Of a stretch of DNA of 64,000 bases, positions 2,549-40,098 are shown piece by piece (positions within the stretch are counted from its first letter, which is position 1; every line of letters starts with the position of its first letter). This DNA is from Mycobacterium decipiens. GTDB taxonomy: Bacteria > Actinomycetota > Actinomycetes > Mycobacteriales > Mycobacteriaceae. The stretch is from assembly GCF_963853665.1 (NCBI RefSeq), contig NZ_OY970459.1, positions 558,001-622,000 on the forward strand, given 5' to 3'. Position numbers and translations under genes: made by a program. The notes beneath the pieces were generated by a model. That model was not told the DNA's origin and did not search any database. It saw nothing but the letters and a program-made list of their open reading frames with translations.

Positions 2549-2565
2549 CGCCCGTTTCGCGGGCG
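2549..2565 (+). promoter_or_regulatory. Intercistronic hairpin between the XdhC gene and coxM
   Basis: Immediately after the TGA of the XdhC-like gene the sequence forms a perfect 6-bp stem, CGCCCG (2549-2554) with CGGGCG (2560-2565), and a TTTCG loop. No T-run follows, so it is not a clear intrinsic terminator. It may set the ratio of factor to enzyme message or protect a 3' end. Function is inferred only. Confidence 0.35.
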
Positions 2566-2612
2566 ACCGACACTGGGATTTCCTTCCCTAGTGATCCTGG
2601 TGAGGTGGTCAC

Positions 2613-3515: not shown

Positions 3516-3529
3516 GAAGGGAATTAACC

Positions 3530-6417: not shown

Positions 6418-6422
6418 TCCGC

Positions 6423-7918: not shown

Positions 7919-8793
7919 CCTTCACCGGCCCCGGCGATGTGATCCGGCTTTTCGACAAGCAGGACTACCTGTTGGATACCGGGACGGCGTCCGCGATCTA
8001 TCTGGCGGTGACGCTGGGCAGGCCGCTGTTGCTGGAAGGTGAGCCCGGTGTCGGCAAGACGACGGCGGCGAAAACCCTTGCAGTGGTGCTAGATACCACC
8101 CTGGTCCGACTGCAGTGCTACGAGGGGTTGACCGCGAACGAGGCACTCTACGACTGGAACTACCAGCGTCAGCTACTGTCGATCCGGCTGGCCGAAGCGC
8201 GCGGCAAGGGTATGTCTGAAATCTCTGAAGCGGACCTCTATACCGAGGACTATCTTGTGGACCGGCCCATCCTACGGTGTGTGCGGCATCGCGGGCCAAC
8301 CCCGCCGGTGCTGCTGATCGACGAAATCGACCGGGCCGACGACGAATTCGAGGCGCTGCTGCTGGAGTTCCTCGGCGAATCCACGGTCACCGTTCCCGAG
8401 CTGGGCACCTTCCTGGCCGAGCGCCCGCCGATCGCGGTGCTCACCTCGAACCGCAGCCGCGACCTGCACGATGCACTGCGGCGGCGCTGCTTGTACCACT
8501 GGATCGATTACCCGGACCCGGCCCGGGCGGCCGCGATTGTCCGCCGGACGGTGCCAGGGGCAACCGCGCCGTTGATCGAGCACGCTACTCAATTCGTCGG
8601 CAGCGCACGCGATCTCGATCTGGACAAGCCGCCCGGCGTGGCCGAAACCATCGACTGGGTCGCGGCTTTGGTGTCGCTTGGGGTCGCGGACTTGGTGGAT
8701 CCGTCTGCACTGGTCAGCCTCGGGGCACTGGCCAAGACACCCGACGACCGTACGCTACTTCGAGATGCGTTCATCGCTTACAGCCGCTCATGA
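7915..8793 (+). CDS. MoxR-family AAA+ ATPase, CoxD-like (Rv0370c orthologue)
   Basis: A 292-residue AAA+ protein. Walker A is GEPGVGKTTAAK at about residues 43-54 and Walker B is VLLIDEID near 131, followed by an arginine-finger region. In Oligotropha carboxidovorans CoxD, a MoxR-type ATPase, is needed to build the Cu-S-Mo centre together with the VWA protein CoxE. Both partners are present here. The GTG at 7915 overlaps the previous TGA (GTGA). Confidence 0.9.
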   Translation: MTFTGPGDVIRLFDKQDYLLDTGTASAIYLAVTLGRPLLLEGEPGVGKTTAAKTLAVVLDTTLVRLQCYEGLTANEALYDWNYQRQLLSIRLAEARGKGMSEISEADLYTEDYLVDRPILRCVRHRGPTPPVLLIDEIDRADDEFEALLLEFLGESTVTVPELGTFLAERPPIAVLTSNRSRDLHDALRRRCLYHWIDYPDPARAAAIVRRTVPGATAPLIEHATQFVGSARDLDLDKPPGVAETIDWVAALVSLGVADLVDPSALVSLGALAKTPDDRTLLRDAFIAYSRS

Positions 8794-8806
8794 GAGGACG
8801 CAAAGG

Positions 8807-9412
8807 ATGAAGATCGCCAACGAGTTCACCGTCAGCGCGCCGATCGAGCGGGCCTGGGACGTGCTATGCGACTTGGAGCAGGTGATCCCGCTGATGCCAG
8901 GGGCGCAGTTGATCGGCCACGAGGGCGACGACTATCTCGGCAAGGTCAAGGTCAAGGTTGGGCCGGTCACCAGTGAATTCAGCGGCAAGGTTCGCTTCGT
9001 CGAACAGGACCGCGACCAGCACCGCGCGGTCATCGACGGCAAGGGCAAGGAGGCGCGTGGCACCGGCAACGCGGCCGCCACGGTAACCGCCCAGCTGCAC
9101 GAGGCCGGAGAGCATACCCACGTCACGGTCGACACCGATCTGAGGATCGTGGGCAAGCTGGCGCAGTTCGGCAGCGGCATGCTGCAACAGGTGTCGGAGA
9201 AGCTGCTGGGCCAGTTCGTGGACTCGCTGGAGGCCGAGCTCGCGGCCCGGAGCTCGGGAAGCACGGAAAGCGCCCCCGCCGCTCCGGAAGCGGCGCCCAT
9301 CGACCTGTTGGAGCTTGCCGGTGGCGGCCAGCTCAGAAAGTACGGTTCAGCGGTGCTGGCCGTGCTGGCCGTGCTGTTGTTGCTGGGCTGGGTGCTACAC
9401 CGGCGGCGCTGA
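8807..9412 (+). CDS. CoxG-like SRPBCC protein with C-terminal membrane anchor (Rv0369c orthologue)
   Basis: A 201-residue protein. Residues 1-150 form a CoxG/SRPBCC fold with the typical start MKIANEFTVSAPIERAWDVL and DLEQVIPLMPGAQL. An alanine/proline-rich linker follows, then a single C-terminal helix (GSAVLAVLAVLLLLGWVL) ending in basic residues, so the fold faces the cytoplasm as a tail-anchored protein. CoxG proteins have been proposed to attach CO dehydrogenase to the membrane or to quinone. The ATG at 8807 follows a purine-rich GAGAGGA element. Confidence 0.87.
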   Translation: MKIANEFTVSAPIERAWDVLCDLEQVIPLMPGAQLIGHEGDDYLGKVKVKVGPVTSEFSGKVRFVEQDRDQHRAVIDGKGKEARGTGNAAATVTAQLHEAGEHTHVTVDTDLRIVGKLAQFGSGMLQQVSEKLLGQFVDSLEAELAARSSGSTESAPAAPEAAPIDLLELAGGGQLRKYGSAVLAVLAVLLLLGWVLHRRR

Positions 9413-9417
9413 ACGCG

Positions 9418-10692
9418 ATGGCTACCCCCGCGCTGTTACGGGGCGTCGATCTCGCGGCGTTCGCGGCTGCGCTGGTCGCACGCCTGCGCGGCGCCGGGAT
9501 AGGAGTGTCCGCTAGCGGCCAAGCGAGTTTGGTGCGGGCGCTGCAGCAGTTGGCGCCGCAGACGCCCGCGGCGCTGTACTGGGCCGCGCGGTTGACCCTG
9601 GTCAACCGTCTGGAGGAGTTGGCCGCCTTCGACGCGGTGTTCGCTGCCCTGTTCGGGACGCTGGGCCGGGCCGGGCCCGACGGCGCCAGCCGCCCGCCAC
9701 TGCCGAGTCCGGGCTCGCGCACACCCGCGGCCGGCGTCGTGCACCGCGCGGACGGCCGATCCAGCGGCTCCCAGGCCCAGGCGTTGCCCTGGGCGACTCG
9801 TCCGCCGGCAACGACCGCCGATGATCAGGACGGCCCCACCGTCGCACTGCCCGATGTCCTGCCCAGCCGCATCGCTGCCCGGGCCGATGAGTCGTTCGAC
9901 CGGTTCGATCCCGACGATCTGCGGCTGCTCGGCACCTGGCTGGAGGCCACGGTGGCGCGCTGGCCGCGGCGGCGCAGCCTGCGATTCGAGTCCAGCCCGC
10001 ATGGCAAGCGCATTGACCTGCGGGCGACGATGAATGCCTCGCGGTCGACCGGCTGGGAATCGGTGCTGTTGGCACGGACCCGGCCCCGCCGCCGCCCCAG
10101 GCGGGTGGTCCTGGTCTGCGACGTGAGCCGCTCGATGCAGCCCTACGCCGCGATCTATCTGCATCTAATGCGGGCGGCGGTGCTGCGCCGGGCGGGGGTC
10201 CACCCGGAAGTCTTCGCGTTCTCGACGTCGCTGACCCGGCTCACCTCGGTGCTGTCTCATCGCTCGGCGGAGGTTGCGTTGGAACGGGCCAACGCCAGGG
10301 TGACCGACCGCTACGGCGGCACGTTCATCGGCCGCAGCATCGCTGCCCTGCTGGCCCCGCCGCACGGCAACGCGCTGCGCGGTGCGGTGGTGATCATCGC
10401 CTCCGACGGCTGGGACAGCGATCCTCCCGACGTGTTGGTGCACGCGCTGGCCAGGGTGCGTCGCCGCGCCGAGTTGCTGGTCTGGCTCAACCCTCGCGCG
10501 GCACACCCCGAGTTTGCGCCGCGGGCCGGCTCGATGGCGGCGGCGCTGCCCTATTGCGACCTGTTTCTGCCGGCGCACTCGCTGACCGGCCTGCACCAGT
10601 TGCTGCTGGCGTTGGCCGATGCCCGCGCTGGCTTACCAGGTCAGAACGGCGGTGGGTCGTCGTCGGTGTGGGGTGGGGCGGGGCCGGTGTAG
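9418..10692 (+). CDS. VWA domain protein, CoxE-like (Rv0368c orthologue)
   Basis: A 424-residue protein with a helical N-terminal region and a von Willebrand A domain in the C-terminal half. The MIDAS metal site is VCDVSRSM (D-x-S-x-S) near residue 240, followed by downstream GGTFIGRS and ASDGWDS motifs. CoxE-type VWA proteins pair with MoxR ATPases as chaperones, here for the CO dehydrogenase metal centre. It is the last gene of the cox cluster, and its final 52 bp overlap the 3' end of the convergent 13E12-type gene, so the two stop regions interlock. Confidence 0.88.
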   Translation: MATPALLRGVDLAAFAAALVARLRGAGIGVSASGQASLVRALQQLAPQTPAALYWAARLTLVNRLEELAAFDAVFAALFGTLGRAGPDGASRPPLPSPGSRTPAAGVVHRADGRSSGSQAQALPWATRPPATTADDQDGPTVALPDVLPSRIAARADESFDRFDPDDLRLLGTWLEATVARWPRRRSLRFESSPHGKRIDLRATMNASRSTGWESVLLARTRPRRRPRRVVLVCDVSRSMQPYAAIYLHLMRAAVLRRAGVHPEVFAFSTSLTRLTSVLSHRSAEVALERANARVTDRYGGTFIGRSIAALLAPPHGNALRGAVVIIASDGWDSDPPDVLVHALARVRRRAELLVWLNPRAAHPEFAPRAGSMAAALPYCDLFLPAHSLTGLHQLLLALADARAGLPGQNGGGSSSVWGGAGPV

Positions 10693-12173
10693 CTGGGGCA
10701 CTCGGCTTGTGGGGCGGTGCGGGCAACCGTGCGGGCGTGGTGGTTGTGGCGGCGTTCGGTGGCGATGCGGTGGGCGCGGTCTTGGGTGCGGGTGCGGCGC
10801 CGCCTGGGCATCATGGCGGTGCGTTCGGGGCAGTAGCCCGGTGGTGGGTCGGCTTCGGGTGACGGGATGGCGCCGGTGGCTCGGCACAGGCTGGGGAATA
10901 GCAGCGCGCTGGCGGGGGTGGTGACGTAGGTGTGGCCGGCGGGGGAGGTCAGGATCAGGGTGCCGTCGGGTAGTTGCTTGTCCTGCCAGCCCCAGAAGGT
11001 TTTGATCAGGTGGTGGGTTCGGCAGTAGCACTTGAGGTTTGCCGCATGGGTGGGTCCGCCGTCGGCGTAGGGGATCGTGTGGTCGAGATCGCAGTGCACC
11101 GCGGGTTGGTCGCAGCCCGGCCAGCGACAGGTCAGATCCCGGCAGCGCACGAAATCGGCCAGCGCCTTGGACGGCGCGTAGCCGGGTTCGGGTGCGGCGT
11201 CGCCGGGGTGGATCAGCGGCACCAGCTTGGCCGAGGCGGCCAACTCCGCCACGAGGTCGGCGGTGATGAGCCCCTCGGCACCGACCTGGGAGGCCGGGGT
11301 GGTGCCGCGCCCGTCGATGCTGGCCTGTTCGGCGATCACGTGGATCACCACCGGCGTGGCGGGCGGGCGTGTGCCGGCGGCGCAGTCGGTGCGCCCGCAG
11401 CGACAGCCCAGCCGGTCGGCCCCGGCGGCCAGCGCCCCCAACGCGTCGGCGCGGCGCTGCTCACGGCTGCGCGGATCATGCTCACACACGGTGGCCGCCA
11501 GCGCGGTCAACCGCTTGTCGAGGGCGGTGGCGTCGGGGGTGAACAGGCTGCCATGAATCTCCGACATCCCGCCCTCGTTCTCCCCGATCCAAATCTCGCG
11601 GTCGGTCTGATTCTTGGTGTGCCGGCGCACCGCGTCCGCATCAGCTTTCGCCACGATCTTGTCGATCTGCCCAGCTAGCCGGGCGCGGGTCATCGAGGGC
11701 CAGCGCGCCACCTTGACGGCCAGTTCGGCGTCCACGGCGGCCAGCACGTCGCGGTCGGTGATCAAATCGGTGCGGTACACGATGGTTTGGAACATCCGGA
11801 AGTCGATGTCACCCGCTTGGAACACCGCGGCCACCTTCGGCAGCCGCTCACGCATGGCCCGGGCATAGCGCAGCCGGCTGGCCGCCAGCCCCTGGCTGAT
11901 CCGCAACGCCGCGCCCACCTCGGCGGCCACCGCCTCCTCGGTATCGATCGCCCAGTCCTCGGTGTCGGTGCAGCGCGAGAGCCGGTAGCCGAACAACTCC
12001 CCGATCGAGACCAGCTGCGCGGCCGCGGCCCGGTTCTCCACCCGAGCGAACGCACAAATTTCCTCCACCAACTCCGCGGACCGCGCCGTGGTCGAGGGAT
12101 AGTGTCGTTCGAAGAGCTCGTCGAAGAAGGCGATCACCGCCGCCCGGGATCGAGGACCCGTTGCGTCGAACAT
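10641..12173 (-). CDS. 13E12-type DUF222/HNH endonuclease-domain protein
   Basis: A 510-residue protein with an N-terminal DUF222 helical region (about 35-330) and a C-terminal HNH domain (about 355-415). The latter has paired cysteines in CRWPGCDQP, the LDHTIPYADGG core and CRTHHLIK. This is the REP13E12 family, which is multicopy in mycobacteria and associated with mobile insertions. Activity is unproven. The copy looks full length and unbroken. M. tuberculosis has no 13E12 gene between Rv0365c and Rv0368c, so this is a lineage-specific insertion. Its 3' end overlaps the VWA gene by 52 bp. Confidence 0.88.
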   Translation of the reverse strand: MFDATGPRSRAAVIAFFDELFERHYPSTTARSAELVEEICAFARVENRAAAAQLVSIGELFGYRLSRCTDTEDWAIDTEEAVAAEVGAALRISQGLAASRLRYARAMRERLPKVAAVFQAGDIDFRMFQTIVYRTDLITDRDVLAAVDAELAVKVARWPSMTRARLAGQIDKIVAKADADAVRRHTKNQTDREIWIGENEGGMSEIHGSLFTPDATALDKRLTALAATVCEHDPRSREQRRADALGALAAGADRLGCRCGRTDCAAGTRPPATPVVIHVIAEQASIDGRGTTPASQVGAEGLITADLVAELAASAKLVPLIHPGDAAPEPGYAPSKALADFVRCRDLTCRWPGCDQPAVHCDLDHTIPYADGGPTHAANLKCYCRTHHLIKTFWGWQDKQLPDGTLILTSPAGHTYVTTPASALLFPSLCRATGAIPSPEADPPPGYCPERTAMMPRRRRTRTQDRAHRIATERRHNHHARTVARTAPQAECPSYTGPAPPHTDDDPPPF

Positions 12174-12273
12174 ACGTTCGATACTACCAGACTCCGCGGA
12201 CGCCGCAGCGGGCCGAAGTAGTCGGCCTCAACGGCCTGTGGTCTAGCTGGTTTATAGGGCAGGATCGGCCGGT

Positions 12274-13389
12274 ATGGATCAGGTATGGGCGAACCGGGCA
12301 GCCAGCGCCGAAGCCGCCGTCACGCAACGTCACCTGAAACGACTCTGGGCGTTGCCGGGGACCCAGTTGGGCGTGGTGGCCTGGCCCTCGTCCAGGCGCG
12401 ATCGGTTGTTCGGCACCTGGCACTACTGGTGGCAGGCGCATCTGCTGGATTGCCTGGTCGATGCGCAGCTGCGGGACCCGCAACCGCACCGGCGCACCAG
12501 GATCAACCGGCAGGTCCGCTCGCATCGGCTGCGCAACAACTTCTCGTGGATCAACAGCTATTACGACGACATGGCCTGGCTCGCGCTGGCGCTGGAACGT
12601 GCGGCCCGGGTCGTCGGCGTGCAGCGCCGGCGCGCGCTGCCGAAGCTCACCGACCAGTTCGTCAAAGCGTGGGTGCCTGAGGACGGCGGCGGAATCCCGT
12701 GGCGCAAGCAAGACCAGTTCTTCAACGCCCCCGCCAACGGCCCGGCCGGGATATTCCTGGCTCGCTATGGGGATCGGCTCAAGCGCGCGGAGCAGATGGC
12801 CGACTGGATCGACCGCACCCTGATCGACCCGGAGACACACCTGGTGTTCGACGGCATCAAGGCAGGGTCGCTGGTCCGCGCGCAGTACACCTACTGCCAG
12901 GGGGTGGTGCTTGGGCTGGAAACCGAACTCGCGGCACGCACCAGCGACGACAGGCATGCACCACGGGTGCACCGCCTGGTTGCGGCCGTCAACGAACACA
13001 TGGCGCCATCGGGTGTGCTGCGCGGCGCCGGCGGCGGGGATGGCGGCCTGTTCGCCGGGATCACCGCCCGCTACCTCGCGCTGGTCGCCACCACGTTGCC
13101 GGGCTATACCGCCGCGGACGTCACCGCCCGCGACACCGCCCGCGCGGTGGTGCTGTCCTCGGCCAAGTCGGCGTGGGACCGTCGGCAAACGGTCGATGGG
13201 TTGCCGGTATTCGCGGCGTTCTGGGACCGAGATGCCGAGTTGCCCACCGCGACGGGTCGGCCGGCGCAGTTTGTCGAGGGCGCGGTGACTAGCTCCGAGG
13301 CGGCCGAGCGGGACCTGTCGGTGCAGCTGTCGGGTTGGATGCTGATGGAGGCCGCCCACCGCGCCGCAGCGGTGAGTTCACTCGGGTAG
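12274..13389 (+). CDS. Glycoside hydrolase family 76 protein (Rv0365c orthologue)
   Basis: A 371-residue (alpha/alpha)6-barrel type protein. It resembles GH76 endo-alpha-1,6-mannanases and contains the double aspartate SWINSYYDDMAWLALAL at D98-D99, matching the catalytic pair of bacterial GH76 enzymes. No signal peptide is visible, so the protein appears cytosolic. A role in turning over alpha-1,6-mannan cores of lipomannan-type glycans is inferred. The 3' end overlaps the convergent DedA gene by 12 bp. Confidence 0.83.
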   Translation: MDQVWANRAASAEAAVTQRHLKRLWALPGTQLGVVAWPSSRRDRLFGTWHYWWQAHLLDCLVDAQLRDPQPHRRTRINRQVRSHRLRNNFSWINSYYDDMAWLALALERAARVVGVQRRRALPKLTDQFVKAWVPEDGGGIPWRKQDQFFNAPANGPAGIFLARYGDRLKRAEQMADWIDRTLIDPETHLVFDGIKAGSLVRAQYTYCQGVVLGLETELAARTSDDRHAPRVHRLVAAVNEHMAPSGVLRGAGGGDGGLFAGITARYLALVATTLPGYTAADVTARDTARAVVLSSAKSAWDRRQTVDGLPVFAAFWDRDAELPTATGRPAQFVEGAVTSSEAAERDLSVQLSGWMLMEAAHRAAAVSSLG

Positions 13390-14061
13390 CACCACCGGGT
13401 CCGGGTCGCCCTTGGGTGCGCTGCGCCGCGCCCGGTAGACTCGCGCCGCCGAGATCAGGGCGGGCAACAGTGAGACGAACAGGATGCCCATGATGATGAG
13501 CTGAAAGTTCTTATGCACGAACGGAACACTGCCCAGGAAGTAGCCCGCGAGCGTCACACCGGCACCCCAGGCGACACCGCCGACGATGTCGAACCCAAGA
13601 AACACCGGATACCGCATGTAGGACACCCCGGCGATCGGCGGCACGAAGGTTCGCGCGATCGGCACGAAACGGGCCAGAATGATCGTCCACGGCCCGTACT
13701 TCTCAAAGAACGCGTGTGACTCGGTCACGTAATGCTTTTTGAAGAACCGGGAGTCTTCCTTCTTGAACAGCGCTGGGCCGATCCGTCGCCCGATGAAATA
13801 GGAGGTCTGATCGCCCAGCACCGCGACCAGCGCGACGCACGGGGCGAGCACCCCGATGGTGACCGGCGGGTCGGCGCTCGCGGCCAGCAGCCCGCCGGTG
13901 AACAACAGCGACTCGCCCGGCAACAGCGGAAACAGCAGGCCGGTCTCGATGTAGACGATGATCAGGATCCCGGGCAACACCGCGGAGCCAAAGACGCCGT
14001 TGGCGCCCAACCAGTACATCGGGTCGAGGATGTCCGGCAGGGCCATCACGTCGGCATTCAT
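13378..14061 (-). CDS. DedA-family membrane protein (Rv0364 orthologue)
   Basis: A 227-residue polytopic protein with the family signature IETGLLFPLLPGESLL near residue 37 and LARFVPIARTFVPPIAG near 130, including the conserved arginines. About four to five membrane segments are visible. DedA (SNARE-associated/VTT) proteins act as lipid scramblases or flippases and affect envelope homeostasis; the substrate here is unknown. The length equals Rv0364. The gene is divergent from fba. Confidence 0.9.
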   Translation of the reverse strand: MNADVMALPDILDPMYWLGANGVFGSAVLPGILIIVYIETGLLFPLLPGESLLFTGGLLAASADPPVTIGVLAPCVALVAVLGDQTSYFIGRRIGPALFKKEDSRFFKKHYVTESHAFFEKYGPWTIILARFVPIARTFVPPIAGVSYMRYPVFLGFDIVGGVAWGAGVTLAGYFLGSVPFVHKNFQLIIMGILFVSLLPALISAARVYRARRSAPKGDPDPVVLPE

Positions 14062-14181
14062 GGTGCCTACAACATACCGGCGTCACCGACCGGGCTCGAC
14101 CAAGACGCCGCCGGACTGGCTGCCGCGCTCAATTGTGTTGTTGCGATACTGGGTGGATCTGAGTCGTCAGGAGGAAGTTTC

Positions 14182-15213
14182 ATGCCTATCGCAACGCCCG
14201 AGGTCTACGCGGAGATGCTGGGTCGGGCCAAGGAGAACTCGTACGCCTTTCCGGCCATCAACTGCACCTCCTCGGAAACCGTTAACGCCGCGATCAAAGG
14301 TTTCGCCGACGCCGGCAGTGACGGAATCATCCAGTTCTCCACCGGTGGCGCAGAATTCGGCTCGGGCCTCGGGGTCAAGGACATGGTGACCGGTGCGGTA
14401 GCGCTAGCCGAGTTCACCCACATCATCGCCGCCAAGTACCCGGTCAACGTCGCGCTGCACACCGACCACTGCCCCAAGGACAAGTTGGACAGCTACGTCC
14501 GGCCGTTGCTGGCGATCTCGTCGGAACGGGTGGCCAAGGGTGGCAATCCGTTGTTCCAGTCGCACATGTGGGACGGCTCGGCGGTGCCGCTCGATGAGAA
14601 CCTGGTCATCGCCCAGGAGCTGCTGAAGGTTGCGGCGGCCGCCAAGATCATCCTGGAGATCGAGATCGGCGTTGTGGGCGGCGAAGAAGACGGCGTCGCG
14701 AACGAGATCAACGAAAAGCTGTACACGACACCGGATGACTTCGAGAAAACCATCGAGGCGCTGGGCGCCGGTGAGCACGGCAAGTACCTGCTGGCCGCGA
14801 CGTTCGGCAACGTGCACGGCGTCTACAAGCCCGGCAACGTCAAGCTGCGCCCCGACATCCTTGCCCAAGGCCAAAAGGTGGCGGCGGCCAAGCTTGGACT
14901 GCCCGCCGACGCCAAGCCGTTCGACTTCGTGTTCCACGGCGGTTCAGGCTCGCTGAAGTCGGAGATCGAGGAGGCGCTGCGGTACGGCGTGGTGAAGATG
15001 AACGTCGACACCGACACCCAGTACGCGTTCACCCGCCCGATCGCCGGCCACATGTTCACCAACTACGACGGCGTGCTGAAGGTCGATGGCGAGGTGGGTG
15101 TGAAGAAGGTATACGACCCGCGCAGCTACCTCAAGAAGGCCGAAGCTTCGATGACCGAGCGGATCATCGAGGCCTGCAACGACCTGCACTGCGCCGGCAA
15201 GTCGCTCAGCTGA
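14182..15213 (+). CDS. fba: Fructose-bisphosphate aldolase, class II
   Basis: A 343-residue zinc-dependent aldolase of glycolysis and gluconeogenesis, cleaving fructose 1,6-bisphosphate to glyceraldehyde 3-phosphate and dihydroxyacetone phosphate. The motifs HTDHCPKD (zinc histidine and catalytic aspartate near 95), FGNVHGVYKPGN and FVFHGGSGS are all present. ATG 14182 is chosen because AGGAGGA at 14169-14175 precedes it and the length matches Rv0363c. The frame stays open upstream to 13732 but overlaps the DedA gene. Likely an essential central-metabolism gene. Confidence 0.97.
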   Translation: MPIATPEVYAEMLGRAKENSYAFPAINCTSSETVNAAIKGFADAGSDGIIQFSTGGAEFGSGLGVKDMVTGAVALAEFTHIIAAKYPVNVALHTDHCPKDKLDSYVRPLLAISSERVAKGGNPLFQSHMWDGSAVPLDENLVIAQELLKVAAAAKIILEIEIGVVGGEEDGVANEINEKLYTTPDDFEKTIEALGAGEHGKYLLAATFGNVHGVYKPGNVKLRPDILAQGQKVAAAKLGLPADAKPFDFVFHGGSGSLKSEIEEALRYGVVKMNVDTDTQYAFTRPIAGHMFTNYDGVLKVDGEVGVKKVYDPRSYLKKAEASMTERIIEACNDLHCAGKSLS

Positions 15214-15216
15214 GCT

Positions 15217-15238
15217 CGGCCGGTCGGCCGGCGGACCG
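15217..15238. terminator. Possible GC-rich stem-loop between convergent fba and mgtE
   Basis: In the 26-bp gap between the two stop codons CGGCC (15217-15221) can pair with GGCCG (15226-15230), and CGGTC (15221-15225) with GACCG (15234-15238) as an alternative. There is no T-run on either side. A bidirectional termination role is a guess from position. Confidence 0.25.
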
Positions 15239-15239
15239 C

Positions 15240-16622
15240 TCACAGCCCCTGCAGCTCCGCCAGCGTCAGGTGCGCGATCATAAAGTAGATGAGCAGGCCC
15301 GTGCCGTCGACGATGGTCGCGATCATCGGCCCCGAAACGATCGCCGGGTCGATCCGCAGCTTCTTCAGCAGCGGCGGAAGGACGGCGGCCACCAACGACG
15401 ACCACACCACGATGGCTCCCACCGTGAGCGCGACCGTCACTGTCACCTGCGGGCCCACGCTCAACGTCCAGGCGCGCACCACCGCGGCGGCCGCCATGGT
15501 GAGGCCGACCAGCGCACCGGTCGACAGTTCCTTGGCCAACACGGCCGGAACGTCGCGAAACCGGACCTGACCGGTGGCCATCGCGCGTACCAGCGTGGTG
15601 GCGATCTGGGTGCCGGTGTTGCCGCCGGTGCCGATCAGCAGCGGGATGAAGAACGCGAGCGAAATCACCGCCTCCATTTCATCGGAGAAGGCCCGCAGGA
15701 CGCTGCCGGTGTACGCCTCGGCGGCGAATAGCACGAGGAGCCAGACAACCCGCTTGCGCCATAGCAGCCACGGCGACGCCCTCAGGTACGGCAACTCGAG
15801 TGGGGCGGAGCCACCCTGGCGCTCGGCGTCCTCGGTTGCTTCCTCCTCGGCAATGTCGATGGCTTCGTCTTCGGCAATGATGCCGAGCAGCCGGTTGTCG
15901 GCGTCGATGACGGGCACCGCCATCAAGTTGTGGCCCATGAGCGTCTGGGCCGCAAGCTCCTTGTCGGTCAAGGGCGAAACGACGATGAGGTCGTCGCTCA
16001 TCAGCTCGGACACCCGCTGTTCGGGGTCGGCCAGCACCAGGGCGCGAAAGGCGATCACACCGCGCAGATGTGCGTCGGGGTCGGTCACATAGACGTAGGC
16101 GGTGGTTCGTGAATCGCTACGCAGGCCCGAGGCGCGTTCCCGCACGCTGGCGACGGCCTCCGAAACCGTCATGCTCGGGCGCACGGTCAGCGTTTCGGGC
16201 ACCATGTGCGCCGCGGCGGAATCTTCCGGCCAGCTCAACAATCCACGCAGCACCATCGCCCGCTCCAGCGGTAGCAACGTCAGCAGCGCCTCCCGCCTGT
16301 GCTCCTTGAATTCGCGCAGGATGTTGGCGGCGTGGTCGGAATCGAGGACGTCGAGGAAGGTGGCGGCCAGCGACTGGTCCATCGCTTGAAGTGCGTCCGC
16401 GGCCAGCTTGTCGTCGATCGACTCGAACAGCTCGGTGGCTCTGGTGCCGTCGAGCAGGGGGCCGAGTTTCCCGAATTCGGCCTTGGATAACGTGCCGAGT
16501 TCGCGGGCGCGATCCGGCAGCTCGGTGACGACGTCGAGCCACAAATCGACGGCTTTCGGAGTGCCGATACCGATTGCGTGTCGGATGTCGATTGTTGAGT
16601 TCTCGACGGCGCGGATGCTCAT
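15240..16622 (-). CDS. mgtE: MgtE-type magnesium transporter
   Basis: A 460-residue protein, the same length as Rv0362, with an N-terminal MgtE_N superhelix (about 20-140), two CBS domains (about 150-270) that sense cytosolic Mg2+, and five C-terminal membrane segments that include PLLIGTGGNTGTQIATTLVRA, the conserved pore signature. ATG at 16620-16622 is preferred; the frame extends to 16703 without homology. The 219-bp leader upstream contains a 6-bp hairpin (CAGCCG 16714-16719 with CGGCTG 16725-16730) but nothing I can recognise as a magnesium riboswitch. Confidence 0.95.
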   Translation of the reverse strand: MSIRAVENSTIDIRHAIGIGTPKAVDLWLDVVTELPDRARELGTLSKAEFGKLGPLLDGTRATELFESIDDKLAADALQAMDQSLAATFLDVLDSDHAANILREFKEHRREALLTLLPLERAMVLRGLLSWPEDSAAAHMVPETLTVRPSMTVSEAVASVRERASGLRSDSRTTAYVYVTDPDAHLRGVIAFRALVLADPEQRVSELMSDDLIVVSPLTDKELAAQTLMGHNLMAVPVIDADNRLLGIIAEDEAIDIAEEEATEDAERQGGSAPLELPYLRASPWLLWRKRVVWLLVLFAAEAYTGSVLRAFSDEMEAVISLAFFIPLLIGTGGNTGTQIATTLVRAMATGQVRFRDVPAVLAKELSTGALVGLTMAAAAVVRAWTLSVGPQVTVTVALTVGAIVVWSSLVAAVLPPLLKKLRIDPAIVSGPMIATIVDGTGLLIYFMIAHLTLAELQGL

Positions 16623-16841
16623 GTGGCGTTCACCTGCCTCTGCTGGACGATTGAGACGACATGCCGCAGTCTCTGGGGGAACAGGCCGCCAGTACATTGC
16701 CACAGACGGGATCCAGCCGCATTTCGGCTGCGGTCGATCTTTTCTGTGTTGGGACTAGTCGGTCCTCGTGACGCGCCGGTGATGCGGGCCGGTACTAGCG
16801 TTTACGAGCGGTGAAATTGCGGGCAAATCAGCGAATCCCGG

Positions 16842-17680
16842 CTAATTGCTGGGGGACTGGCAGATCTTCCACTGATCGTCGCGGAACTGAAGGTCAAGGC
16901 TGCGGGTCGAGCGGACCTGAGGGTCGAAAGCCATGAATGTGGTGACATTGGCCTCGGCGTGTTGACCGTTGACGACGACCTGGTCGATGCTGGCGATGAC
17001 CGGATACTGTTTGGCCGCCGACACCCGGCGATAAGTTTCGGCCCAATCCCGCTCGTCATAATCCACGTAGCCATCGCGGGTGGAACCACAGGTGATGGAG
17101 CGCAGCGCGGTCAGGTCGCCGGTCTGGATGGCTATGTCAAAGCTCTGGATGGTGTGGCGCACCTGATCTTCCTGCGACACCTTCAGATGCTTGGTGCGGG
17201 TCAGCAGCACGGTGCCCAGGATGGCGATCGCCGCCAACGCCAGGACGATCACCACCACCGCCAGCACCCAGCCCCAGTTGCGTTGCCTGGACGGCGGTGG
17301 TGTCGCCCCCATCCGGGGAGGGATTGCCTGTGGCACAGCAGTTTTCGGGGCAGGCCGGTCGGCTGCTGCTGTGCACCGGCCGGCGCCGAGTGGGTTTGGA
17401 AGACCTCGGTGGTCGCCTCCGGAGCGGTGACGATGACTTGGGTCTCCTTTGCGTCGAAGCCGGGTGCGGTGAAGCGGCGTTCGCGCTGCCCTTCCGGTTT
17501 CGCGGCCGATGGATCGTTCTCCGGTTCGGGCGTGTTGATCACCACGGTCTCGGTTTCGGCGTCGTGGGGCACCAGGGGGTAGCTTTCGGTGCCTACTTCG
17601 CTGGGATCGGCGGTCCGCTCACCGGCCGATTCGGCCGTGGATTCACCGGCGGCGCGGTCTGGCTCGGGTGCGTTGGGCAT
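16842..17680 (-). pseudogene. Membrane-anchored conserved protein (Rv0361 orthologue), split by a frameshift
   Basis: Two overlapping frames together encode one Rv0361-like protein of about 279 residues. The 5' part (from 17680) is a charged, proline-rich cytosolic region running to QQQPTGLP. The 3' part (from about 17336, 164 residues) contains a transmembrane helix (WVLAVVVIVLALAAIAILGTVLL) and an extracellular NTF2-like domain. The frame is lost at a CCCC run on the coding strand (17347-17350). Adding one C would give QQQPTGLPPKTAVPQAIPPRMG and restore a continuous reading frame. This is a one-base deletion, or a sequencing error in a homopolymer. A separate GTG start at 17336 could still make the membrane part alone. 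Confidence 0.75.
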
Positions 17681-33236: not shown

Positions 33237-34469
33237 TTATCTCCCGGGCCGCATGGGTGGGGCGTCGTTCGGGGCCACTTCGGCACCGATCTTGCGAAAT
33301 AGTATGTCCGCCTCGTTGCGGTAGTCGCCCTGGTCGTCAAAGGCCTCGGGGGCATAGGTGACCGCGACCGCGATCGCGACCTTCTGGGACGGTAGATACG
33401 CCTCCACGGCCGCATACCCGGCGAACATGGGATTCTGCAGCAGCCAGTGGCCGGAGGTGATGATCCCGAGGCCATAGGTGTAGCCGTCGCTCTGCTCGAA
33501 GCAGGTCGGGCAACCCGGTTGGGCGTGCGTCTTGCCGCGCAGATCGGTCGACACCATCGCCTTATACGACTCCGCCGAGAGCAGCTTGCCCGAGCCGATA
33601 CCGACCGCGGTCGCCTCCATGTCATAGATGTTGGTGGTCTGAATGGCGCCGTGCGTGATGGTCCAGGACGGGTTCCAGAACGTCGATTCTTCGTAGAACG
33701 GTATCGCAGCAGGGATTTTTAGGGCCGCGCGGCGCTCGGAGCTGAATGCGTGCAGCACGGGTTGGGGAATATCGGGCGTGTCGGAGTTGGCGGTGGCCGT
33801 CAGGCCCAGCGGTCCCAGGACCTTGTTCCTCAGCAGCGTCGGGATGTCGTGACCGGTGGCCTTCTCGAGCGCCAGTCCCAACAGGATGTAATTGGTGTGC
33901 GCGTAATTCCAGTTTGTGCCGGGTTCGTAAAGTAATGGGCGCGAGGATATTTGACCCAGTAGATCTTGAGTTGTCCACTGTCGGAAGGGGTTAGCATAGT
34001 ACTCGTTGTCGAACGCATCATTGCCGATTACATAGTCGGGATATCCCGAAGTCATCTGGGCCAATTGAGCCAACGTGACGCGATCGGCGTGCGGGAAGTC
34101 GGGTAACCACTTGGACAACTTGTCGTCGAGGCTGACCTTCTTCTCGTCAACCAGCTTGAGTAGCAACGTCGACACGTAGGAGATCGCGACCGCGCCGTTG
34201 CGAAAGTGCATGTTGGTGGTGGCCGGCACGCCGGTCATCGAGTCGCCGACGGCCTGCGTGACCACCTCCTTGCCGGCCATAGTGACCCGGACGAGCGCGG
34301 ACTTCAGGTGAGCCTGCGCCATGAAGTCGCGGACGACCCGCATCACCGCTTCGGCCTTGGCCGTGGAGTTGGCCGGCGACGAGGTCGGTGCCGCACTGTA
34401 GGGCGCGCCGCAGCCAGCCACGATTCCGAGAGCGAAGACCACGCCTCCGATTCGTCGCAAGTTGGGCAT
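33237..34469 (-). CDS. lpqK: Lipoprotein LpqK, serine beta-lactamase/penicillin-binding fold with a missing nucleophile
   Basis: A 410-residue lipoprotein. Signal peptide and lipobox LGIVAGC place the lipidated cysteine at C20. The remainder is a class C beta-lactamase/esterase-like fold with MHFRNGAVAISYVSTLLLKL, VSLDDKLSKWLPDFP and NYAHTNYILLGLALE (the tyrosine motif). The catalytic S-x-x-K, normally in FRIGSVTK, reads A93-V-A-I96, so serine and lysine are both gone. It is probably a non-hydrolytic, cell-wall-facing protein. Orthologue of Rv0399c. Confidence 0.88.
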   Translation of the reverse strand: MPNLRRIGGVVFALGIVAGCGAPYSAAPTSSPANSTAKAEAVMRVVRDFMAQAHLKSALVRVTMAGKEVVTQAVGDSMTGVPATTNMHFRNGAVAISYVSTLLLKLVDEKKVSLDDKLSKWLPDFPHADRVTLAQLAQMTSGYPDYVIGNDAFDNEYYANPFRQWTTQDLLGQISSRPLLYEPGTNWNYAHTNYILLGLALEKATGHDIPTLLRNKVLGPLGLTATANSDTPDIPQPVLHAFSSERRAALKIPAAIPFYEESTFWNPSWTITHGAIQTTNIYDMEATAVGIGSGKLLSAESYKAMVSTDLRGKTHAQPGCPTCFEQSDGYTYGLGIITSGHWLLQNPMFAGYAAVEAYLPSQKVAIAVAVTYAPEAFDDQGDYRNEADILFRKIGAEVAPNDAPPMRPGR

Positions 34470-34588
34470 GATTGAGTTTGGCAGGCCCGGACCGTCGAGG
34501 TCGGCCCGGTGCCGTCGGCGGGGCAGTCGCAGGGCGATCGGGCGTGCCGCGCTAGCGGATCGAGGCAGCTGGGCTCGGCGCCGGCCCT

Positions 34589-37500
34589 TCAGAGCAGTCC
34601 GAGCCGTTGCAAGTTGGTGGCGTACTTGATGATGACCGGTGCAGAGATCTGCGGGATGTCACTGTCCGGGCCGATTTTCGCTTCTCGCACCGCCGCGTGG
34701 AATCGCTCGGCCGACGCGACCGACCCGCAGATCGGCTCTGTGGGCTTTCGGTGTTGGTCTAGCAACCGCAGCAGCGAGTATTGTCGCTGCTGCTCCGGCA
34801 GGCCCACCAGGCGGGCCTCGAACTGCTGCAGCCAGTCCCCATAGTCGGGAATGCGCTGGATCGGGTAGCCGGCGTCGATCAGCCAGTCGACGTACTCGTC
34901 GAGTCCGATGCCGTCGTCGTGCGGGTTCATCACGTGATACGTCCGCAACCCGTCGGCGACTTGCGCACCTAGGGTGGTGATCGCTTCGGCGACAAACTCC
35001 ACCGGAAGACCGTCGTAGTGGGCACGTTTCCGCGAGCCGTTCTCGTCGAGCTGGTAGAACGAGCCTGGTGCGATGCCGGTGGCCACCAGGCTCAGAATCA
35101 GCCGGGTAAACACATCCGGCAGGTTGAGCTGTCCGGAATATGTGGTGTCGGCCAAGATCATGTCGCAGCGGAAAACCGTGACTGGTAGGTCAAACTGGTC
35201 GGTGGCCTCCCGTAGCAGGACCTCGCCGGCCCACTTGCTGTTCGCATAGCCATTTCCGTAGCTGTCATCGACCCTACGGGTGGGGCTGATGAGCCGAATG
35301 TCGGCGTCCTCGGTGAACACTGACGGATAAACCTGGTCGCCGACGCTGCCGGATGACACGTATGCGTAGGGCTTGAGCCTGGTGGTCAGCGCAAGGCGAA
35401 TCAGTTCGGCTGTGCCCACTACATTGGGGCCAAACAGTTGGCTGTAGGGCAGCACATGGTGGACCAGGGCTGCGGGGTCGACGATCAGATCGACTGACTC
35501 CGCCAGCCGCTGCCAGGTTTGCTGATTCATGCCGAGGGTGGGTTCGCCCTTGTCGCCGGCGATCACCTCGAGATGGTCCGTGGCCAATTCCTGGTAGTGG
35601 TGCAACAGCTCTAGATCCCCGCCGTCGAATGTGTTGTCAAGCCGTCGCCGCGCATCCTGATCGGACTTGCCGCGGACAAGGCAGATCAACGTGCCCTCGA
35701 CCGCGTCCATCCGCCGTAGCCATTCCAAAGCCAGATACCGGCCGAGGAAGCCGGTCGCCCCCGTTAGCAGGACCGTGCGCGCCTTGCCCCAAGACCGGGG
35801 CAGATCGCGTGCGGCGACAAGGGTCGGGGCGTCGATGAACTTGTCCAGTGTGAGGTCACTTGCGTGCAGCTTGGTGTGGTTGCCGTGCACGGACGCAAAA
35901 CCGGGCCTTCCAGCGCCGGGCTTGCGCCGTCCCTCGATATAGCCGGCCAGTGTCTGCAGATCGCTGCTCGGGCTCGCGATCACGCTCAACGGCACATCTA
36001 CCCCAAATGTCTCGTGCAGCAGGGTGGATAGTGACAGGACCGACGGCAATTCTCCACCTGAGTCGGCGGCGCTGGCATTGGGCTGTGTCGTGAGTCGAGC
36101 CGCACCAGCCACGGTTGGCTCGGCAAGAATGTCGCGCTGGGTAAGGGTGACCCCGGCAGCACGAGCGCGCTCCTGCACCTGAATCGACAACATGCTGTCG
36201 CCTCCCAGGTCGAAGAACGACTCGTCGACACCGACGCGGCCTACACCCAACACTTGGGCGTAGATGCCGGCCAAGATTTCCTCGGTCGGGGTGGTCGGAG
36301 CCCGATACTGACCGGTGTCGGCGTACTGCGGAGCCGGTAGCGCGTCGGTGTCGAGTTTGCCGTTGACCGTCATCGGCATCGCATGCAGCTGCACCACCGC
36401 CACTGGAACCATATGCGGCGGCAGCCGGTCCGCTAACTGGGCGCGTAATCCGGCGACGTCGGCGGACCCGGTCACGTAGGCCACCAGGCGTGTGTCACCG
36501 GTGGTACCCGCGCGGGCGGTGACCACCGCCCGATCCACGCCGGGAATCCCGGCCAACAGCGCCTCGATCTCGGCGGGTTCGATGCGGTACCCGCGGATCT
36601 TGACCTGCTGATCGGCACGGCCCACATAGTCCAGCTGTCCATCAGGGCCCCAACACACCACATCCCCGGTGCGATACATCCGCGCCCCGAACCCGCCGAA
36701 TGGGCAGGCCACAAACCGTGCCGCGGTGAGCCCGGCTCGACGCACATACCCATACCCCACCCCAGCCCCGGCCGCATACAACTCCCCGGCCACACCGGCC
36801 GGCACCGGCTGCAATTTCGCGTCCAACACAAACAACGCCGCCCCCGCCACCGGCGAGCCGATCGGGGGGATCCCCGACTGGGGTGCCAACGGGGCGCTCA
36901 TGGAAACACACATCATGGTTTCGGTGGGGCCGTAGGCGTTGATCATTACCCGCCCGGGTGCCCACCGATCCACAAGGTCAGCCGGGCACGCCTCACCGCC
37001 AACCACCAACGTCACCGACTCCAAGCCATCCGGTGGCAAAACCGCGGCCGCTGTGGGGGTTTGACTTAACACGTTGACGTGTTCGGCCACCAATAGCTGG
37101 TGCAGGTCTGCCGGGCAGCGGGTGACCGTTTCGGGCACCACCACCAGCCGTCCGCCGTGCAGCAGTGCTGCCCAGATCTCCCACACCGAGAAATCGAAGC
37201 TATGGGAGTGGCACTGACTCCACACCTTTCCCCGGGTACCTGCCAGATCGTCTCCTAGGGACGCCAGGAGCTGGGTGACGTTTTGGTGGGTGATCGCCAC
37301 ACCCTTGGGGGTGCCGGTGGTGCCTGAGGTGTAGATGATGTAAGCGATATCCTCGGCGGTCGGTGGGGTGGGGTGTGTTGGGGTGGTGATGGCGGGGCCG
37401 TTGATATCGATGACTGTTAGGTCGTAGTGGTCCAGCTGTGGGCGTAGGTCGGTGGTGGTGAGTGCCACGGCCGGGTCGGCGTCGGCGATCATGAACCCGA

Positions 37501-38068
37501 TGCGGGTGTCGGGGTGTGCCGGGTCGATGGGTAGGTAGGCGGCTCCTGTCTTGAGTACCGCCAGGATCGCGACGACTGCGTGGGCTGATCGTGCAAAGAG
37601 CAGCGCTACCACCTGGCCGGGGCCTACCCCCTGAGCTGCCAACAAGTGAGCGAGCCGGTCGGCCGCTTGCTCGAGTTGGTGGTAGGTCAAGGTGGTGTCG
37701 GTGTAGGTCAGCGCGGGGGCGTGGGGGGTGCGGGCTACTTGTGCGCTAAACAGTTGCGGGATGGTCGCCCTAGGTACCGCGCCGGCCAGCACGGCGGCGT
37801 TACCCCACTGCCGCAAGTACGAATGTGCAGCCCCATCAAGCGAACTCGCCGACGACAACCGCCGTGCAGCGTCACTTCGCACCGGCTGCTCCGCGGCGCT
37901 GCGAACGCCATGCGTTTGAGCTGTCTGAACGTCGACGCAAACGCCGTTCGCCGACATCTGCCTGGTACCGCCCGTGGGTGCCTTACCCGGGCACAGAACG
38001 TGCTGTTCTTCGGCGTTGGCCAAAACATGGAAACTGTCGTTGTCGTCGTCAAGTGAATTGACGCTCAT
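34589..38068 (-). CDS. NRPS adenylation-carrier protein fused to a CAR-type reductase domain
   Basis: A 1159-residue protein. Residues 1-30 copy the start of the neighbouring MbtH protein and 30-70 look decayed. An NRPS adenylation domain spans about 100-575 ([60 protein letters not shown]). A carrier domain follows with S625 in [11 protein letters not shown]. Then a second carrier-like segment ([12 protein letters not shown], residues 669-680) has leucine where the phosphopantetheine serine should be. A reductase (745-1159) has [18 protein letters not shown] and [11 protein letters not shown]. The 660-1159 part closely resembles carboxylic acid reductases such as FadD9. Read by position, the specificity pocket is about D-F-W-S-V-G-A-M-C-K, threonine-like only in its first three residues. 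The likely product is an amino-acid aldehyde. Confidence 0.85.
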
Positions 38069-38180
38069 TAATTGGACTCCTACCGGATAAGAATCCCGCC
38101 TACAAAAACTCTGGTCGGTCCTGAATTATGTCCACGCTGAATCTCAACCATTCGCAGCAGGGGCGTGGTTCGATTGATGA
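38048..38180 (-). repeat. Second copy of the mbtH leader and start, now leading the NRPS gene
   Basis: The NRPS start and leader repeat those of mbtH. AGGAGTCCAATT precedes both start codons, both proteins begin MSVNS and continue with a run of aspartates, and the element TTCGATTGATGAA with a following CATGAAAAAT or CATAAAAAAT motif occurs upstream of both (about 38168-38195 and 38549-38582). This is direct evidence of a tandem duplication of mbtH with its promoter region. Confidence 0.75.
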
Positions 38181-38272
38181 ATGGCGCGTGTGCATGAAAA
38201 ATCGACACACAAGGTGAGGCGGGTAACGCGTGCGCCGACTGTTCTAGGCCCATCGCGCGTTGGCCTGCGAGA

Positions 38273-38530
38273 TCAACTGAAATCAGTATCAATCACCACC
38301 TGGCTCCAAAGCCAGGTGGACCGACTATCGGGGGCCTGCCGCAAGGTCCTTGGCCGCATATCGGTCACGTGCCGCTCGACATAGTCCAAACATGCAGCGC
38401 GCTCGGCTACGCCGTAAACCGCTCGCCAACCCTGCGGGACCTCGGCGAAGGCCGGCCACAGACTGTATTGTTCTTCGGCGTTGACCAAAACATAGAAGCC
38501 GCCATTGTCGTCGTCCGAATTGACGCTCAC
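38273..38530 (-). CDS. MbtH-family NRPS chaperone
   Basis: An 85-residue MbtH-like protein, which normally binds adenylation domains and makes them soluble and active. The core [19 protein letters not shown] and the TDMRPRTL segment match, but the tryptophan usually found before TDxRP is valine (RHVTDMRP). The last 18 residues, after TLRQ, are an unusual tail. GTG 38528-38530 follows AGGAGT. It is the first gene of the NRPS operon, with a 204-bp gap before the NRPS start. The sequence around its start is duplicated at the NRPS start. Confidence 0.88.
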
Positions 38531-38910
38531 TAAATTGGACTCCTGGTTTTCGATTGATGAACGGCCTATTGCGCATAAAAAATCACCTCATGGCGTAAGG
38601 CGACGAACCGGTACGACGACTGTCGTAGGCGAATCACCGGCTAGGCGTGCCATCGGAACGGTATCGGATTGCAATAGATGCTGAAGGCAACTATGGGTGT
38701 CGAACGTTGCATTTGGATGATAATGATGTTATCAACACATTACTGAGCCCGAGGCTGTAGATAAGATTTACGTCTACTCTGTATATCGAGGAATTCAAGC
38801 GCCGGCGTAAACTTGATGTACAGAGCGCGAGTTATCCGCAATGGTCGCCGGGAACGTGCACTATCTTTACACCAACATTGTTGGACAGGGTTGCGGTAGG
38901 TGGCCCTCGT
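38531..38910. other. AT-rich region upstream of mbtH with palindromes
   Basis: No gene is seen in these 380 bp between fadE7 and mbtH. The part near 38700-38880 is much poorer in GC than its surroundings. Two perfect palindromes stand out: TGATAA (38718-38723) with TTATCA (38729-38734), 5-nt spacer; and CCAACA (38872-38877) with TGTTGG (38879-38884), 1-nt centre. They could be operators for the mbtH-NRPS operon. The low GC suggests horizontal origin. Confidence 0.5.
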
Positions 38911-40098
38911 TCAGCGGAATGCGGCCAGGCCGGTAAAGGCCTGGCCTAGGACCAGCTGATGCATTTCGGGTGTGCCCTCATAGGTCAGTACCGATTCCAG
39001 GTTGACCATGTGCCGGATGACCGGGTATTCGAGTGATATCCCGTTGCCGCCCAGGATTGTTCGAGCGGTACGGCAGATTTTGATCGCTTCCCGGGTGTTG
39101 TTGAGCTTGCCGAAGCTGACCTGCTCCGGCCGCAGGCCCACACCATCTTTGCGGCGCCCCAGGTGTAGCGACAGCAATAGGCCCTTGTGCAGCTCGACCG
39201 CCATGTCGACGAGTTTTGCCTGCGTCAGTTGAAAACCCGCGATCGGACGGCCGAATTGGGTGCGCTGCGTTGCGTAATCGAGCGCGGACTGCCAGGCCGA
39301 CCGCGCCGCACCCATCGCGCCCCAGACGATGCCGTAGCGTGCTTCCGACAGGCACGCCAGCGGCGCTTTGAGGCCGGTCGCGCTGGGCAGCATCGCTTCG
39401 GCGGGTAGCCGAACATCGTCGAGGACCAGCTCGCTGGTAATCGACGCGCGCAGCGACAGCTTGTGGTGGATGGTGTTGGCGGAAAAGCCGGGCGCATCGG
39501 TGGGGACGATGAATCCGCGGATCCCGTGGTCGGTGGCCGCCCACACGATGGCGACGTCGGCGACCGAGCCGTTGGTGATCCACATCTTGCGGCCGTTGAT
39601 CACCCAATCCGAACCATCGCGCCGCGCCCGGGTTTTCATCGCCGCGGGGTCGGATCCGACGTCGGGTTCGGTCAATCCGAAGCAGCCGACCAACTCACCG
39701 CTCGCCATACCGGGAAGCCACTGCTGCTTGTGCTCTTCGGAACCGAAGTTCGCGATCGCGAACATCGCCAGCGAACCCTGCACCGACACCAGCGACCGGA
39801 TGCCTGAGTCGGCGGCTTCGAGTTCCAGGCAAGCCAGGCCGTAGTGGACGGCGGACGCGCCGCCGCATCCGTAGCCGTGCAAATGCATTCCGAGCAGGCC
39901 GAGGTCGCCGAACTGCTTTGCCAGTTCGCGCGCAACCGGCAGGTCACCGGCCTCGAACCAGCCGGCGACGTATGGGGTGATGTGCTCGGTGCAGAACTGT
40001 CTGACGGTGTCACGCACCGCGATCTCGTCGTTGGACAGCGACGCGTCAAGCCCAAGCGGGTCGTACGGGTCGAACGCGGGCGGTGTGTCGGTGCTCAT
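38911..40098 (-). CDS. fadE7: Acyl-CoA dehydrogenase FadE7
   Basis: A 395-residue flavoprotein, the same length as Rv0400c. The acyl-CoA dehydrogenase signatures CFGLTEPDVGSDPAAMKT and RKMWITNGSVAD are present, and the catalytic base is E374 in LTYEGTPEMHQL. The sequence style, with the glutamate in YEGT, is like glutaryl-CoA dehydrogenases, which oxidise and can decarboxylate glutaryl-CoA. The natural substrate is not known. It is divergent from the DUF3054 gene and upstream of, but probably separate from, the mbtH-NRPS operon. Confidence 0.92.
   Translation of the reverse strand: MSTDTPPAFDPYDPLGLDASLSNDEIAVRDTVRQFCTEHITPYVAGWFEAGDLPVARELAKQFGDLGLLGMHLHGYGCGGASAVHYGLACLELEAADSGIRSLVSVQGSLAMFAIANFGSEEHKQQWLPGMASGELVGCFGLTEPDVGSDPAAMKTRARRDGSDWVINGRKMWITNGSVADVAIVWAATDHGIRGFIVPTDAPGFSANTIHHKLSLRASITSELVLDDVRLPAEAMLPSATGLKAPLACLSEARYGIVWGAMGAARSAWQSALDYATQRTQFGRPIAGFQLTQAKLVDMAVELHKGLLLSLHLGRRKDGVGLRPEQVSFGKLNNTREAIKICRTARTILGGNGISLEYPVIRHMVNLESVLTYEGTPEMHQLVLGQAFTGLAAFR

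Follow-up and report, generated by a model that had tools for sequence, protein, structure and literature searches.

How does a gene come to hold an amino acid-activating unit of peptide synthesis directly in front of a reductase of the carboxylic acid reductase (CAR) type? The question is raised by an open reading frame (ORF) on the reverse strand of Mycobacterium decipiens, at 34589-38068 of the window (the whole stretch of DNA analysed, 64,000 nucleotides of contig NZ_OY970459.1). In this ORF, an adenylation (A) and a carrier (T) domain of a nonribosomal peptide synthetase (NRPS) are joined to a CAR-derived reductase (R) domain, with an inactive leftover of a CAR carrier domain between them as a scar; a first-pass annotation had proposed this order, and Pfam, NCBIfam, a dedicated profile and trees support it. 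We consider it fairly probable that a mycobacterial NRPS has shrunk to its terminal module in this ORF, and that its reductase goes back to a single ancient capture from a CAR, the half-carrier being the scar of that event.

Domain layout and the half-carrier

The 1159 codons of the ORF are uninterrupted in a single open frame, with the following layout (C, condensation domain):

34589..38068, reverse strand: the ORF (1159 aa), MbtH remnant - C/A linker - A - T - half CAR carrier - R
37976..38068, reverse strand: half MbtH domain providing start codon and leader (residues 1-31; PF03621 match and repeat of the mbtH 5' end)
37883..37975, reverse strand: junction filler (residues 32-62), without a homologue among the NRPS loci examined
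37769..37882, reverse strand: C/A-type linker (residues 63-100; tblastn of 61-100), the C domain being gone
36338..37768, reverse strand: NRPS adenylation domain (residues 101-577), ten-residue code DFWSVGAMCK
36095..36301, reverse strand: NRPS carrier (T) domain (residues 590-658) with Ser625, of the motif type that precedes epimerisation (E) domains in the examined loci
35924..36076, reverse strand: C-terminal half of a CAR carrier (residues 665-715), GGEL for GGDS
34592..35923, reverse strand: CAR-type linker and thioester reductase (residues 716-1159) with GATGFLG, Ser906, Tyr941 and Lys945

Indeed, Pfam places AMP-binding at residues 107-441, AMP-binding_C at 500-571, PP-binding at 599-658 and NAD_binding_4 at 768-1030, and NCBIfam recognises above cut-off an amino acid adenylation domain (128-516) and a thioester reductase domain (765-1159). 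No match to the condensation domain PF00668 was found in the ORF, which is a single module and has the make-up of a minimal A-T-R NRPS, namely an NRPS A domain, a T domain with its Ser, an R domain with TGxxGxxG and YxxxK, and no C domain. The best solved relative of the A-T half is linear gramicidin synthetase and that of the C-terminal half is a CAR (5mso, 767.6 bits over 427-1159); the Nrp reductase 4dqv, which was outside the trees, matches residues 713-1159. The CAR equivalog NF041592 aligns residues 647-1159 at 912.5 bits, below its cut-off of 1300. The R domain is of CAR type, but the A domain is of amino acid type (31% identical to the genome's own CAR over 400 residues) and the carrier leftover has no phosphopantetheine Ser.

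The ORF keeps the CAR carrier only from the GGDS position onwards, the counterpart of helix I is missing, and GGDS reads GGEL at residues 671-674, as the first-pass annotation had noticed. With helix I and the attachment Ser lost, the half-carrier cannot carry substrate, and the candidate reading of two active carriers in the ORF was rejected on the same grounds. The CAR carrier context formerly seen from about residue 660 is upheld by a profile made of 63 distinct CAR halves (GGDS onward, NRPS rows excluded), on which residues 660-725 score 64.5 bits against a best of 7.4 bits in 5000 shuffles, but it is narrowed to the C-terminal half of the carrier. Ordinary NRPS T domains reach at most 21.6 bits on this profile (n=50).

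The half-carrier is not confined to M. decipiens. In a test of six linkers chosen by eye, the real score was never reached in 5000 shuffles for the window ORF (64.5 bits), Mycobacterium simiae (67.6 bits), M. ostraviense (15.1 bits) and M. simulans (13.7 bits), and was reached in 4/5000 for M. nebraskense and 1/5000 for the row P0016. A scan of the T-R linkers of 52 NRPS rows involved no such choice; 18 were scored and 34 skipped (32 with linkers of 1-7 residues, 2 without the motif). Here no shuffle of 1000 scored as high as the window ORF (65.4 bits), M. simiae (64.8 bits), M. ostraviense (16.0 bits) or M. simulans (14.5 bits), while M. nebraskense, P0016 and L018 (2.1-6.6 bits) were equalled by 1/1000 shuffles each, and the remaining 11 of the 18 linkers had at least 100/1000 shuffles as high or gave no score. 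With 18 linkers tested, the traces in M. nebraskense, P0016 and L018 are too weak to claim. The best-kept half-carriers are thus those of the window ORF and M. simiae; M. simulans and M. ostraviense have eroded ones, and most other scanned linkers have none.

Furthermore, a junction probe (ORF residues 590-790, covering T, half-carrier and linker) matched 293 of 396 Mycobacterium genomes at E up to 1e-38. Among the matches listed, only those of the window, M. simiae and M. simulans, which are also the three best, begin at probe residue 1; the others listed begin at 27-74 and lie in open frames mostly of CAR length. The half-carriers of the window and M. simiae have in common the changes VPLxVIASP and DLQTLAG away from CARs (identified by eye) and group against the 63 CAR halves with an SH-aLRT of 91 (not starred; 55 columns, not decisive). 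The M. simiae half-carrier keeps GDS, followed by Pro, also lacks helix I, and is probably inactive as well. In the AlphaFold2 model of residues 590-1159 (mean pLDDT 62.8, pTM 0.57), the half-carrier forms three short helices between about 677 and 715, where the block means of 55-63 are too weak to lean on. As a separate observation, one locus of M. nebraskense (L038) holds two reductase-ended NRPSs, one of which has a SPATDL scrap recalling the CAR carrier.

Relationships of the two halves

Without a root, a tree of 75 R domains has a single branch (100/98) that divides 50 NRPS rows from 25 CAR rows. When 71 R domains were rooted with 11 distant thioester reductases as outgroup, all 40 mycobacterial NRPS rows formed one clade (100/98) nested in the CAR reductases: these NRPSs and 16 CARs form a clade (100/99), outside of which stand four other CARs, including the second CAR of the M. 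decipiens genome itself (L131). Since the NRPS reductases are one clade nested in CARs, the simplest reading is one old capture from a CAR, of which the half-carrier would be the relic. The first NRPS branch unites the window ORF with M. simiae, an NRPS of its own genome (L014) and L144 (100/96), followed by M. simulans (92/52, weak) and then by M. ostraviense, which together with P0016 lies in a 98/95 fork. Near the base of the NRPS tree the half-carrier is accordingly best kept, and higher up it is absent, L014 and L144 being the exceptions. Taken alone, R segments 881-1020 and 1021-1159 also recover the NRPS clade (89 each, not starred), and early branching is not rejected in either (p 0.66 and 0.78). 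The best match to the R domain within the same genome is the 4828-aa protein encoded by L014 (73%).

The A domain tells the same story. In a tree of 232 A domains (FastTree, local support), it falls in a set of six rows at 98%. The others are modules of L014, of which the terminal one is nearest and one occurs in duplicate (as L014 and L007), the terminal A of M. simiae and one NRPS of M. simulans (C84), the terminal A of another M. simulans NRPS (C3) falling elsewhere. The closest codes to DFWSVGAMCK are those of two other mycobacterial A domains (9/10), and a firm substrate prediction is absent. The ORF shares both its R clade and its A grouping with the mycobacterial NRPSs that end in a reductase, but not their several modules with C domains. 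Separate trees of the two halves, which had been proposed as the means of telling them apart, largely bring them together in one family of mycobacterial NRPS terminal modules, R residues 726-880 alone excepted.

T domains were sorted by motifs set by eye. Of the TE-like type, 63 precede E and none precedes C; of the TC-like type, 96 precede C and none precedes E. A further 30 match neither motif, with C following in 12, E in 11 and R in 7, and 60 have no recognised follower. Before R, 26 are TC-like and only three, those of the window, M. simiae and M. simulans, are TE-like. Since the window T is of the type that precedes E, an E domain may once have stood in the ORF.

Full-size NRPSs are at hand for comparison. 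The 4828-aa protein of L014 is a polyketide synthase (PKS)-NRPS with KS, AT, DH and KR and two NRPS A domains ahead of its reductase, with an mbtH gene adjoining, and seems to be the window gene's full-size relative. At this locus (2337-16823), a condensation-family stretch runs directly into R with no carrier between, and mbtH lies downstream at 17000-17197; we read the stretch before R, in L014 and in L144, as a putative E domain. In M. simulans the CAR-NRPS join terminates a multi-module NRPS. The chimera is thus not private to the window gene, and its single-module form would be secondary to a multi-module NRPS, which corrects the earlier view of it as a fusion of its own.

Two further observations concern M. 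simulans. Its same-type multi-module NRPS (L012 6757-15921, G023:C3) has an in-frame TAG within the terminal A, leaving ORFs of 2115 and 910 aa, and adjoins a 2082-aa PKS-like ORF with FabA-like domains. A second family copy in the same genome (L160, G023:C84) has a T domain connected to R by a short linker, without an intervening E.

The mbtH-derived start and the origin of the join

The ORF does not begin as an NRPS. Residues 4-31 match positions 3-30 of the 53 of the MbtH model PF03621 (23.9 bits, below the cut-off of 27), and the stretch 38081-37987 repeats, in direct orientation and diverged form, the 5' end of mbtH (38544-38452), including its ribosome binding site (RBS) AGGAGTCCAA and first codons. 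Residues 32-62 have no match anywhere among the loci examined, and residues 61-100 match by tblastn the linker between condensation and adenylation domains of internal NRPS modules. With an MbtH half at 4-31 and unmatched sequence at 32-62, the NRPS sequence begins at about residue 63, and only from there on does the earlier assignment of the N-terminal 650 residues to an NRPS hold. A copied mbtH RBS and start codon ahead of a C/A linker indicate a captured start, with the C domain and everything before it lost. The source of the repeat stands upstream of the ORF on the same strand:

38273..38530, reverse strand: intact mbtH (85 aa; PF03621, 90 bits)

The intact MbtH (38273-38530) reads HVTDMRP at a site that is usually Trp in the MbtH signature.

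The favoured course of events would be as follows. An NRPS would have captured a CAR reductase through a join that fell within the CAR carrier domain or beside it, and residues 665-715 would be what is left of that domain. In this genome, the 4.4 kb that hold mbtH and the terminal module stand between the genes of an acyl-CoA dehydrogenase and a beta-lactamase-like protein; the upstream modules would have been lost, the duplicated mbtH 5' end now giving the RBS and start codon. The MbtH protein would aid the A domain in adenylating one amino acid (perhaps aromatic, a weak indication), Ser625 of the T domain would carry it as a thioester, and the R domain with NADPH would turn the thioester into an amino aldehyde and perhaps an amino alcohol. 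Mycobacterial NRPS reductases reportedly work in two two-electron steps, so that the aldehyde may be reduced further to the alcohol. From its domains and the chemistry of established A-T-R enzymes, the product of the ORF is likely to load one amino acid and to release it as an aldehyde or alcohol.

Several observations weigh against this reading. The root of the reductase tree depends on very long outgroup branches, which the program flagged. The M. simiae NRPS is cut by a contig edge, and its sequence covers only the terminal module side. L014, although early-branching, has a condensation-family stretch and no half-carrier before R, so that a loss is needed there. Further points of this kind are those on which two rival explanations draw.

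According to the first, the common ancestor of the window, M. simiae and M. simulans lineages would have had an NRPS ending in R, and a later recombination with a CAR gene would have brought the half-carrier into it, along with the N-terminal part of R; the half-carrier would then not be a relic of the first capture. R residues 726-880 alone do place these three beside a CAR, without recovering the NRPS clade, which is also what such recombination would produce, and at R 801-880 the same three together with L014 and L144 are nearer to CARs than other NRPSs (71-77% versus 65-69%). Plain identity likewise fails to bring the window half-carrier closer to M. simiae (35/55) than to its best CAR, P0025 of its own genome (66-67%). 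A single NRPS clade is nevertheless not rejected in 726-880 (AU p 0.71), residues 951-1020 also lean to CARs, so that a clean breakpoint is absent, and a half-carrier trace is found in M. ostraviense, which is early-branching and has another T type (0/1000 and 0/5000 shuffles as high). We regard a later recombination as unlikely.

The second is that the ORF is the broken end of an NRPS, open by chance and no longer used. The C domain and upstream modules are absent, no tailoring genes were seen among the five neighbouring ORFs scanned, position 906 is Ser in the ORF and Thr in the other 48 of 49 aligned rows, and the ratio of nonsynonymous to synonymous changes (N/S) on the window branch is 0.71-1.12, versus 0.24-0.44 on that of M. 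simiae (four comparisons), about twice the nonsynonymous share. All 1159 codons, however, are open; Ser625, GATGFLG, Tyr941, Lys945 and the adenylation motifs are kept; GC content at third codon positions is 0.77, near the 0.81 of the neighbours; and an intact mbtH adjoins. Against M. simulans C84, the window branch has an N/S of 1.06 versus 0.84 in A-T and of 0.67 versus 1.60 in R, and its range of 0.67-1.12 stays below the roughly 2-2.5 of an unconstrained gene (a rough expectation, not computed). Averaged over lineage pairs, selection is purifying: against M. simiae, dN/dS is 0.22 overall (half-carrier, 0.31), and against M. simulans it is 0.30 overall. We read the gene as probably under selection, somewhat relaxed compared with M. 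simiae and not in free decay, and the idea of a disused remnant is doubtful.

The weakest explanation, that of the first-pass annotation, in which an NRPS A-T unit freshly replaced the A domain of a CAR in the window lineage, agrees with the overall domain order and with the closeness of the half-carrier and of R (71% identical) to P0025, but is highly improbable and is largely ruled out by the trees, since R lies within the NRPS clade and is more identical to that of M. simiae (76%), the A domain groups in the corresponding NRPS family with its terminal modules, and the join is common to M. simiae and the decayed M. simulans gene.

A wider form of the favoured capture would have all mycobacterial NRPS terminal reductases descend from one CAR through a join inside its carrier, helices II-IV being kept for docking of the reductase by the new carrier, and the ORF being a working minimal reductive synthetase; we put it forward only tentatively. 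On that reading, the ORF would be a preserved intermediate of domain capture, and evolution would have used a fusion point inside the carrier fold.

Known systems and genomic setting

Minimal A-T-R synthetases have been described with a list of earlier ones, CARs being treated as distant relatives, in the parts of PMC7586950 consulted, where the ATRed of X. indica is proposed to release phenylalanine as an aldehyde that dimerises to a pyrazine. The architecture had been thought to be without a described single-module counterpart, and this does not hold. The ORF resembles ATRed in having one NRPS A, one T, one R and no C domain, and differs in its CAR-derived R, the half CAR carrier between T and R and the mbtH-derived start. 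Monomodular NRPSs with a terminal reductase are also mentioned in a passage of PMC8658869, and the likeness of CAR and NRPS reductases is noted in passages of PMC5826065 and PMC5396282. In the literature covered, mostly as titles, abstracts and passages and with subscription papers barely included, neither a CAR descent of mycobacterial NRPS reductases nor a half-carrier was found. What is new here is the half-carrier and its graded erosion, single-module A-T-R enzymes being already described.

Compared with type I CARs (FadD9 and Nocardia CAR; 5mso, 5msc), the R domain, linker and second carrier half of the ORF are homologous, whereas its A domain is of NRPS type, its carrier is half-deleted and without Ser, and its score lies below the CAR family cut-off. 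Its R domain falls in the clade of mycobacterial NRPS terminal reductases (4dqv, Nrp), most of which (32 of 52 rows), unlike the ORF, have only 1-7 residues between T and R. MbtH-NRPS fusions carry MbtH sequence at the N terminus of the NRPS. The ORF does likewise, but with only about 28-31 residues, beside an intact mbtH, and without a complete MbtH domain.

The locus would offer a readable record of a reductase moving from stand-alone CARs into peptide assembly lines, with the stages of erosion present in living species. In the passages of PMC7586950 consulted, the majority of the engineered NRPSs were nonfunctional. Grafting of reductase domains often fails, and a natural fusion point with a kept half-carrier could be a testable guide for engineers.

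The mbtH gene and the ORF form a segment inserted between two genes that are neighbours in relatives:

34470..38910, reverse strand: inserted segment with mbtH and the ORF (4441 nt)
38911..40098, reverse strand: flanking acyl-CoA dehydrogenase gene
33237..34469, reverse strand: flanking gene of a beta-lactamase-family (PF00144) protein

Among 98 Mycobacterium genomes searched, the beta-lactamase-like gene was found in 37 and the dehydrogenase in 86 at the cut-offs used. The two lie 11-25 nt apart in five genomes (G029, G064, G023, G026 and G047), and in G076 a different dehydrogenase stands between them; in most other genomes with both, judging from the listed coordinates, not counted singly, they are apart or on separate contigs. 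In M. simiae, the beta-lactamase-like gene directly follows the end of a dehydrogenase copy that is broken over three frames (L174 1-737), and the NRPS is on another contig. A search for mobile-element or repeat ends at the insert found no inverted matches between the two flanks and just two direct ones, each of 8 nt, and none of the plasmid records covers the segment (best, 18% coverage at 72% identity). The left flank has 49% GC, versus 65.7% for the window.

Finally, three further loci (L126, L127 and L128) encode A-T-R proteins in frames of 1020-1107 aa, which belong to another actinobacterial family and have a quite different reductase.

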